Shown in pieces: positions 40,873-44,025 of a stretch of 64,000 nt of DNA (position 1 is its first letter; each line of letters starts with the position of its first letter). Below the pieces are notes generated by a model. It had not been told where the DNA came from and searched no databases. It worked only from the letters and a program-made list of their open reading frames with translations. This stretch comes from Prevotella fusca JCM 17724 (GTDB lineage: Bacteria; Bacteroidota; Bacteroidia; Bacteroidales; Bacteroidaceae), in NCBI RefSeq assembly GCF_001262015.1, contig NZ_CP012074.1:1525001-1589000 (forward strand). The letters are read 5' to 3'. The translations under genes were made by a program, and so were the position numbers.

Positions 40873-40877
40873 ACAGC

Positions 40878-40969
40878 GAATTATTTTCATGAAAATAATT
40901 ATTTTTTTTCACGTAAATAAATATTTTTCTTCATGAAAATAAACATTTCTTTTCATGAAAATAATTTGC
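40878..40969. repeat. Family A element copy 5
   Basis: Four cores (CATG, CACG, CATG, CATG) spaced 22 bp apart, with GAATTATTTTC and GAAAATAATTTGCG ends. It lies between converging pabC and retron reverse transcriptase, six bases from one stop and 66 from the other. Confidence 0.85.
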
Positions 40970-41034
40970 GAAAGGTAGCCATCTACATGACGAAAGATGA
41001 GAATTACGCTGCTTATTAACTTACTTTTTACTGC

Positions 41035-42360
41035 TTACAGACGTGATTTTAAAAACAATTTGATGAGTATAATAGCAACCAATATAATCACCATCAATAT
41101 AAAGTTAAGGATGCGTTTGTTCTTTTTTCTTGGATCATAAGGATTATTGCTTGTAGTTCCAAGCTGACGTGATGATGTGTTGTCATTTGACAAAACAGTA
41201 GTTCTTGTCACTCTATCTTTGACCGATTTAGAAAGATACTTACCCATATAAGCCTTATATTCCACCTCTTTTATTTCTCTCTTATTCGTTTGTTGCAAAG
41301 AAGTATAACGACTAACAAAACGCTGATAGAGTGGGTCATCGGCTCCACGCACCATCTTCATATAGTTCAGCTTACCACCCAGAACTTTATTAAGAGGTAC
41401 GTGGTTCTGATGCCCCTTTGTCTTTCCGTGCTGCAACTTGTAGCTCTTCCACGCAGCCTGACAGGCATCTTCATAGCCGTAACGTTCCCAGATATACAAC
41501 AGTGAACGGATTTCACACACATAACGGCGGCTAACATTCACTTTCTCCGTTACCATCAAGCCCGTTACCTCCTGCCGTCTTCCACGGCGTTGTAAGTGGG
41601 TTTTCGCCTCATTCAGTATGAAGCCGTAACGCTCAACGATAGTCTTTATCTGCTGTGCCAGTTCTCCCTGTGGACGAAGTATGTCTGCATCAGAACTGAA
41701 GGTGAGGTCATCAGCATAGCGGGTAAAGGTGACACCCTGTGCAGCAGCTACGCCCGCAATCTCCTTATCCATCTCCCGACAAATAAAGTTCGACAGTGTT
41801 GGCGATGTTGCAAATCCCTGTGCCAACACCTCTTCACCGTTATCCGTGCGCACAGTAGCCAGTCCTGAAACGAGTTCTGCAGCCAATGACGAGAAGCCGA
41901 AAGGCTCTGCCATCAAGCAGTCAGCCACCTGACGGCGTGTGATAGTGGGGAAGAAGTTTTTTAAATCAAGGTTCAAGATATAACGTTTGCCCACGTGTGG
42001 ACGTGCATTATCTACCACAGAACGACCACAAACGAAGCCGTATGCCCAAGGGGTAGGCTCATCATAGGTCTGCAGGACGATGTTCAATATGTGAAGAACA
42101 TCATGCAGTCTTCCTTTCGGAGCAGTAATCTCACGATAACCACCGTGCTTCTTGCGAAGTCGGAATGTCTTGCAGCGTCGCCGTATATTATTGGTATCAG
42201 CAAAGAAACTAAGCTGTTTCCCACGAAAGTCAGAATAGATGTAGGGTGCTTTCAGTTCATTCAGCAGCTTAGCAAGTTCCTGTGCATCATTTAAATAACG
42301 CAACCGATTCTCAAAATCAGCCTTTGTGTATTCTCTTCCGTTTACTGTTCTGGTAGCCAT
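41035..42360 (-). CDS. Retron reverse transcriptase with C-terminal membrane helix
   Basis: The 441-residue protein has all core reverse transcriptase motifs: NLDLKNFFPTI (Asp pair site), QGFATSPTLSN, YADDLTF (Y215-D218) and LNEAKTHLQRRG. Retron-specific markers are NARPH (residues 118-122, NAxxH) and the VTG motif (265-267). After the RT core a linker rich in Arg, Lys and Ser (330-415) leads to one hydrophobic helix at about residues 417-437, then a short basic tail. Upstream on the same strand is a structured ncRNA with its own promoter. The helix could be a fused membrane effector. No separate effector gene is adjacent. Confidence 0.9.
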   Translation of the reverse strand: MATRTVNGREYTKADFENRLRYLNDAQELAKLLNELKAPYIYSDFRGKQLSFFADTNNIRRRCKTFRLRKKHGGYREITAPKGRLHDVLHILNIVLQTYDEPTPWAYGFVCGRSVVDNARPHVGKRYILNLDLKNFFPTITRRQVADCLMAEPFGFSSLAAELVSGLATVRTDNGEEVLAQGFATSPTLSNFICREMDKEIAGVAAAQGVTFTRYADDLTFSSDADILRPQGELAQQIKTIVERYGFILNEAKTHLQRRGRRQEVTGLMVTEKVNVSRRYVCEIRSLLYIWERYGYEDACQAAWKSYKLQHGKTKGHQNHVPLNKVLGGKLNYMKMVRGADDPLYQRFVSRYTSLQQTNKREIKEVEYKAYMGKYLSKSVKDRVTRTTVLSNDNTSSRQLGTTSNNPYDPRKKNKRILNFILMVIILVAIILIKLFLKSRL

Positions 42361-42384
42361 AGTGCGCTTGTTTTAAACAAAAAA

Positions 42385-42505
42385 ATAGGAACGCTGTAAG
42401 GGAATTACTTTTATCGTGAACCTTCGTTAACGATAAAACGATACTTCGTATCAAACTCCAGCGAATACGCCGGAAACTACTTCTAATTCTTTCAGACGTT
42501 CCTAT
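42385..42505 (-). ncRNA. Retron ncRNA (msr-msd)
   Basis: Read on the minus strand, the RNA begins with a1 ATAGGAACG and ends with the complementary a2 CGTTCCTAT, which is followed by a T run. Between them are an msr hairpin TCCGGCG-TATT-CGCTGGA (42457-42474), a second stem GATAC-GAA-GTATC (42440-42452), and an msd hairpin at 42409-42438 with stem TTTTATCGT/ACGATAAAA and inner AAC/GTT around a GAAG loop. The order a1-msr-msd-a2, immediately 5' of the reverse transcriptase start, is the standard retron layout. The msd is short (stem-loop of 30 nt). Confidence 0.82.
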
Positions 42506-42511
42506 CTTTGG

Positions 42512-42519
42512 CAAAGATA
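42512..42519 (-). promoter_or_regulatory. -7 promoter box TATCTTTG of the retron
   Basis: On the minus strand, TATCTTTG lies directly before a1 of the retron ncRNA, so transcription would begin at or just before a1. With the a1 sequence it forms a palindrome TATCTTTGGCAAAGATA. Confidence 0.65.
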
Positions 42520-42684
42520 GATATTATAATTTAAACAGCAAAACTTTTCAACTATTAAATCATAACTGTAAAATATTTGTTGAGACTTGGTAAAACGGTT
42601 ATAAATCTTTAGGAATCAAGTAATCAAATATTTTGAATGCTGAAAACGAGTCTGTCTTGTCTACTAAATAAAGCCTCTAAGGAC

Positions 42685-43416: not shown

Positions 43417-44025
43417 ATGGAAACAAAGCATACAGAGTTTGAGGAAATGCGCCAGCAATTGGGCATCCTCAAGAATAAACTTGAAAACCAGACACTCATC
43501 AACGACAAACTTATCAGGCAGTCAATGCTCGATAAGATGTCGTCTATGAAGAAATATACATGGTTTTCATTCTTAGTGTTACTATTTATTTATTATGCCT
43601 ATTATGAAGCTCGGGAGATATTTAACCTGTCTTGGTGGTTCTACGGATTCACTGTTATATTTATGACTTTCAGTGTCGGTTTCGATGCTTATATCAATCA
43701 TGTCAATAAGGAAGAGTTCCTCAATGGTGATCTCATAGCAGCATCTCTACAAATGCAACGAATGAAAAAGCTCCGCAAAATATCCTTATTATGTGGTATC
43801 TCTATATTGACAATATGGGTTCCTTGGATTTGCTTAGAGGTATACAATGGTTTGGGTGTTGCGAATGGAGGAGAAAATGAATCCTTATTCTATAGTATGA
43901 TGATTGGTGGTGGGGTCGGCTTAATCATCGGAGCAGTTATCGGTATAAGCATTTACTTCCGTATGCAACGCATTAATTCCGATATTATCCAACAGATTGA
44001 TGAACTTAAAAAAGAGACAGAGTAA
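43417..44025 (+). CDS. Membrane protein downstream of the ECF sigma factor
   Basis: The 202-residue protein has an N-terminal cytoplasmic helix (residues 1-45, charged, coiled-coil like: EEMRQQLGILKNKLENQ), then about four membrane helices (48-65, 75-95, 122-142, 160-180) and a short C-terminal charged helix. I do not recognise a family. Position after an ECF sigma gene with a 120-base gap suggests a role in its control, for example as an anti-sigma factor, but no known anti-sigma domain is seen. A strong terminator follows. Confidence 0.8.
   Translation: METKHTEFEEMRQQLGILKNKLENQTLINDKLIRQSMLDKMSSMKKYTWFSFLVLLFIYYAYYEAREIFNLSWWFYGFTVIFMTFSVGFDAYINHVNKEEFLNGDLIAASLQMQRMKKLRKISLLCGISILTIWVPWICLEVYNGLGVANGGENESLFYSMMIGGGVGLIIGAVIGISIYFRMQRINSDIIQQIDELKKETE

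Follow-up and report, generated by a model that had tools for sequence, protein, structure and literature searches.

A candidate stand-alone retron subtype in Prevotella fusca with a membrane helix fused to its reverse transcriptase

The window considered here, a stretch of 64,000 nucleotides (nt) from Prevotella fusca JCM 17724, carries on its minus strand a compact retron in which a promoter-like site, a noncoding RNA (ncRNA) and the gene of a reverse transcriptase (RT) travel together. The reading to which we give about an even chance is that of a single-gene, stand-alone retron subtype, termed RT-TM for its transmembrane (TM) helix, in which the helix is an effector held back by multicopy single-stranded DNA (msDNA). 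The conserved, tail-anchor-like helix at the C-terminus of the RT stands where related single-gene retrons have their effector, and the subtype, which we take to be new, has no name in the libraries searched. Judged from its sequence, the locus is almost certainly a genuine retron, and a role in defense is probable. The initial annotation of this DNA had described a retron with a fused helix and no adjacent effector, all of which is upheld by the comparison; we infer, as that annotation reasonably did, that loss of inhibition by msDNA would lead to membrane damage by the helix.

Reverse transcriptase core

The RT open reading frame (ORF) at 41035..42360 of the minus strand encodes 441 amino acids (aa) and matches RVT_1, retron RT models and solved retron RTs; RVT_1 is the only Pfam match of the protein at E values up to 0.1. 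Residues 1-368 (41257..42360, minus strand) constitute the retron RT core, for which the best PADLOC matches are the type XI, XII and I-C models, ending at residues 365-368. NAxxH and VTG are names of retron RT motifs. An alignment of 18 hand-picked rows places the catalytic YADD at residues 215-218, NARPH at 118-122 and VTG at 265-267; all three motifs, as read from the letters by the initial annotation, are invariant in the 18 rows, the invariant positions of NARPH being N, A and H. The structure prediction proposed in that annotation was made by AlphaFold from the same alignment, and shows a core that is confident for the most part, a low-confidence linker and a C-terminal helix.

Noncoding RNA

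Adjoining the RT gene is an ncRNA (42385..42505, a1 to a2, minus strand) with a1/a2 repeats, hairpins of both msr and msd, and a G that may be the branching site. The inverted repeats a1 (ATAGGAACG, 42497..42505) and a2 (CGTTCCTAT, 42385..42393) form helix 1 of the covariation test, and msr hairpins 1 (42456..42475) and 2 (42439..42453) form helices 2 and 3, with 99.0% and 96.2% of cells paired, respectively. Helix 4 is the 30-nt msd hairpin (42409..42438), the presumed template of the msDNA, with two-sided changes at 7 of the 9 modelled pairs; all of these lie on the minus strand, and the positions of a1, a2 and the msd hairpin were counted by hand. The G at 42483 (minus strand) lies in a TTAG found in 14/14 ncRNAs, and by analogy with known retrons we take it to be the branching G.

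Over 13 distinct rows, 96.5% of cells are paired. Two-sided changes are observed at 15 pairs and in 37 cells, against 5.5 and 7.8 in shuffles (0/500 shuffles as high), further pair types are not above shuffles (46/500), and the structure breaks when pairing partners are slid. The alignment used was fitted to the covariance model, and a MAFFT alignment likewise gives 15 pairs with two-sided changes. The a1/a2 pair, two msr hairpins and 30-nt msd hairpin agree with those drawn earlier from the letters.

On the RT strand the covariance model reaches 161.6 bits (match at 42372-42511), versus 21.3 bits on the other strand, with the window sequence itself among the rows that built the model. It scores 84.5-164.4 bits in all 14 helix-clade loci tried, all of which except L012 contributed to the model, some of them numbered differently. 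When 68 sources were searched, the sole match outside the clade at E < 0.01 was L060 (31.4 bits, E 0.005), which likewise lies just upstream of an RT. The ncRNA folds with z = -4.55, and none of 200 shuffles is equally stable; the same holds for the opposite strand (z = -4.80), and the strand and meaning of the RNA therefore rest on the promoter, the RT and the comparison. A known RNA family was looked for and rejected: at gathering scores Rfam matches nothing in the window, and relaxing the limit to E 1 for 42300-42600 still yields no match.

Linker and C-terminal helix

The core is followed by a poorly conserved linker, residues 369-409 (41134..41256, minus strand), which has a predicted local distance difference test score (pLDDT) below 50 at residues 380-409 and varies in length, the 412-aa form being shorter by 29 residues. 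The C-terminal helix, residues 410-440 (41041..41133, minus strand), has a tail-anchor layout with a 19-residue hydrophobic core. The best hydrophobic 19-mer begins at residue 417, with a mean Kyte-Doolittle value of 3.05, and AlphaFold predicts a helix at 410-440 with mean pLDDT of 67 (411-420), 88 (421-430) and 82 (431-440), in keeping with the linker and one strong hydrophobic helix of the initial annotation.

With a helix scored where the best 19-mer has a mean hydropathy of at least 1.9 within the last 45 residues, it is kept in 123 of the 128 homologues among the matches listed (best 120 of 834 and best 120 of 778 matches, 128 in all), at identities to the window RT down to 46%. Of the remaining five, P0096 has an end that differs from that of its kin as if in another reading frame, and the other four, 268-330 aa long, terminate ahead of the tail. 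In 30 hand-picked representatives no more than 9 residues separate the hydrophobic core from the C-terminus, and the net charge beside the helix is positive on the N-side in 26/30 and on the C-side in 22/30. The ratio of nonsynonymous to synonymous substitution (dN/dS) for the last 27 codons is 0 to 0.91 in the 20 pairs, out of 21, where it is computable, with few changes. The helix is very probably functional and membrane-inserting.

A quick tree built from 100 RT cores without their tails gathers the helix-bearing rows in one 39-row group (Shimodaira-Hasegawa-like approximate likelihood ratio test, 100) with the helix in 38/39 rows; the sole row scored as helix-less is L016, where the conserved tail lies in a different reading frame. 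The group takes in L046 and L047, from another genus of the same family, on a long branch. The tree holds 24 of the 128 homologues, hand-picked, and was made without bootstraps; long end branches were flagged, including that of L047, and L001, L011, L014, L031, L032, L040, L042, L043 and L049 were left out as repeats, as were all RTs under 225 bits. A chance helix was considered and rejected on the strength of this single well-supported group and of the retention among the 128 homologues. We also note that the ends of L016/L102, P0096 and P0099 are out of the usual frame, which may reflect sequencing errors or natural off-states.

Comparison with known retrons

The solved structure closest to the window RT is that of the type I-C retron Eco2 (Ec67), and the RT fold is alike. 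Eco2 has a C-terminal Toprim domain (to residue 586) as its fused effector, whereas the window RT has a disordered linker and a hydrophobic helix instead. The type I-C Toprim domain was not found in the window RT, the PADLOC model being matched at 14-323 of 529 and NCBIfam NF038237 reaching 190.7 bits against a cut-off of 450. The best RT-core models are PADLOC RT-Protease_XI and RT-TIR_XII, with 305.8 and 278.6 bits, respectively. In contrast to these types, whose profiles span 475-510 residues, the 441-aa window RT is without a protease or TIR domain: the type XI model is matched at 32-326 of 510 only, and the type XII model at 28-342 of 475, with NCBIfam NF042941 at 248.3 bits against a cut-off of 600. 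Annotation tools might therefore misname RT-TM, the RT core of which scores best as RT-Protease.

Eco6 (Ec48) is alike in that a membrane effector is proposed. The proposed effector there is a separate two-helix membrane accessory protein (PMC8989520), while the window has one helix fused to the RT. A separate two-helix protein of this type was not found beside the RT, as no gene is common across the six neighborhoods described below. A survey of 3395 retron or retron-like RTs puts the share with a fused effector domain at about 32.8% and names Toprim, protease and TIR domains as examples (PMC12405507). Titles and abstract beginnings in the literature, with few subscription papers among them, mention no membrane helix fused to a retron RT, which is weak evidence of absence.

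Neighboring genes of helix-bearing and helix-less retrons

The flanks of 11 helix-clade loci (up to 4.5 kb per side) fall into six groups: the window with L004, L005 and L007 (sharing the sigma factor and/or pabC side), L003, L006, L100, L101/L102, and L103/L104. Among these 11 loci no ORF of at least 60 aa is common to different groups at E 1e-5, which agrees with the lack of an adjacent effector gene reported in the initial annotation. Helix-less relatives from Bacteroidia (L017-L024, at 38-45% identity, and others) have a related RT core and differ in that 39/61 loci continue with one of two shared downstream gene families (26 and 13 loci). The partner frames open anywhere between 50 nt ahead of the RT stop and 177 nt past it, and 19 helix-less loci have a common upstream gene family. 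Neither the two downstream families, defined like all partner families as single-linkage BLAST groups, nor the upstream family is matched beside any of the 11 helix-clade loci. Partner gene and helix look like alternatives.

The annotation had named close helix-less homologues with a conserved separate effector as evidence that would count against its reading. Such homologues were not found: the helix-less RTs with partner genes lie outside the helix group, at no more than 45% identity where given, and of the close homologues in which no helix can be read (L016, P0096, P0099, P0102, P0104 and P0105) the neighborhood was compared for L016 alone, where some genes are also those of L101 and no gene belongs to a partner family.

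The 26-locus downstream family (L018:2915-3748, L021:2831-3769 and 24 more) is uncharacterized, and an RNxxxH-like motif is present in the two members scanned. For these two sequences, considered as HEPN nucleases, Pfam gives nothing over its cut-off, DUF4145 (0.034) and RICH (0.015) coming closest, and PADLOC gives no match. Helix-less RTs of varied length (L008, L018, L051, L076 and others) end alike, with an LCExxFDLSxL, VDIDELNNDLDSLLN or GLDEAM-like stretch, and these similar C-terminal peptides might serve to dock the partner protein.

Distribution, transfer and exchange of the tail

A helix-clade RT was found in 7/200 genomes of the genus (own included; one, L016, with the tail in another frame) and in 8/399 of the family (own included), while 393 genomes of the order and 395 of the class hold only that of the window itself. 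This sampling was judged on at most 30 loci per search, and the clade may not extend beyond this family. Viral contigs hold no close relative (best 39% among the best 80 of 263), and the 180 plasmid and 44 phage records obtained are all below 60% identity. The subtype is not rare in sequence data, since one close protein cluster, P0053, has 3759 members.

The whole cassette (41024..42561, minus strand; 1.54 kb) contains the promoter-like site, the ncRNA and the RT gene, and is the block common to the window and P. multiformis (L003), whose neighborhoods are unrelated. The two are 96% identical over 1540 columns, and in the stretches compared beyond the cassette only three short matches (65-93 nt) are seen, which are repeats near 40877-40967. 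The RTs themselves are 96% identical, compared with 89.5% for IspG (part), 88.7% for a histidine kinase, 84.5% for PabB and 73.5% for PabC between the window and G124, taken as P. multiformis. These values fit a transfer of the cassette. A clean empty site was not found: the pabC region of G124 aligns to the window on the pabC side only, with no sigma factor in the stretch compared, and the retron-less G010, G024 and G204, which have close matches to both flanking genes, carry these on different contigs or more than 2 Mb apart.

Core and tail differ in divergence in some pairs of alleles. L041 and L044 differ at 53/1104 core bases versus 74/219 tail bases (p 3e-30), and L013 and L044 at 77/1104 versus 77/219 (p 2e-25); the window allele (L010) and L004 show the opposite, 159/1104 versus 18/219 (p 0.012), and the window and L041 have core and tail alike in divergence (p 0.33). 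Relative to L041 and L013, L044 has diverged much more in linker and helix than in the core, as would be seen if alleles had swapped this part.

Mechanism and alternative explanations

In the proposed mechanism the RT would copy the msd hairpin into a short msDNA, and the RT-msDNA complex would stop the C-terminal helices from inserting or assembling. A phage protein that binds or removes the msDNA would free the helices, which could then cluster in the inner membrane, depolarize it and halt the infected cell. Our view of whether the helix itself is the effector is evenly balanced. The fuller proposal, in which one fused TM helix is the whole effector, msDNA is the antitoxin to this built-in membrane toxin and the linker and helix form a cartridge swapped between alleles, is more tentative and falls slightly short of that. 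If one helix suffices, a single RNA and a 412-441-aa protein would be enough for a working retron, with perhaps the smallest retron effector.

Several points weigh against the helix as effector. In one study the Eco6 (Ec48) accessory protein, which has two helices, showed no toxicity by itself (PMC8989520). The hydrophobic moments of the helix range widely (0.17-1.00) and no common pore-lining face is seen, and a single helix is also the simplest membrane anchor. The helix-less flanks compared are mostly 1.5 kb versus 4.5 kb for the helix clade, and 22/61 helix-less RTs are also without either partner family; some of these are long and may have a fused domain. The effector may be encoded elsewhere in the genome. 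A gene for a 202-aa, seemingly membrane-bound protein lies at 43417-44025, beyond the sigma factor and two genes away, and this protein together with the sigma factor is found in the window, L004 and L007, and is absent from L003, L005, L006 and L100-L104.

A less likely but serious alternative is that the helix is a mere anchor, holding RT-msDNA at the inner membrane so that the complex can sense infection there or bind a membrane effector whose gene lies elsewhere in the genome. The tail-anchor layout with its mostly positive N-side (26/30) would suit an anchor, as would a helix sequence that drifts while its hydrophobicity stays and a linker of varying length. Against it, the six neighborhoods have no common partner gene, only the cassette is shared with P. 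multiformis, and the helix stands where relatives have an effector. It is unlikely that the retron serves a task other than phage defense, for instance msDNA-based regulation at the membrane: the PADLOC defense scan, run on window flanks only, is blank for four neighbors, but the patchy presence (7/200 genomes of the genus) and the signs of transfer resemble those of defense genes. That the tail is a functionless leftover from a protease, TIR or Toprim domain since lost is very improbable, for although the core fits the type XI, XII and I-C models only to residues 365-368 and a few close entries (L016, P0096, P0099 and three short ones) are without a readable helix, the helix persists across the listed homologues in one well-supported group and the dN/dS of the last 27 codons stays below 1 in all 20 computable pairs, though on few changes.

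Promoter and surrounding locus

The element TATCTTTG (TAnnTTTG) at 42512..42519 (minus strand) lies directly ahead of a1 in 14/14 loci, a placement that occurs in 1.7% of shuffles. A TTTG at 42539..42542 (minus strand) precedes it by 19-20 nt in 11/14 loci. Both were read with the Bacteroidota promoter consensus (-33 TTTG, -7 TAnnTTTG) as the -7 and -33 elements, respectively. The host uses a promoter type other than the sigma-70-like one; sigma-70-like sites, 9 against 5.0 expected (standard deviation 2.3), belong to a consensus that is not the host's, and this result was left unused. The promoter and terminator scan gave no terminator-like site. The initial annotation had placed the retron at 41035..42519; its end at 42519 is the start of the -7 element, and the common block reaches 42561.

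The window neighbors of the retron are a chorismate-binding enzyme and a class IV aminotransferase (pabB- and pabC-like), together with the sigma factor, and PADLOC gives no match for four of the neighbors. A period-22 tandem repeat is situated at 40884-40964, between pabC and the retron, and similar repeats are observed at L003 2442-2532. A second retron-like RT of 364 aa, L002 (G000:C1:1715257-1718874), is present in the same genome outside the window, and is nearest to the St85 family model, with 225.3 bits against a cut-off of 235.
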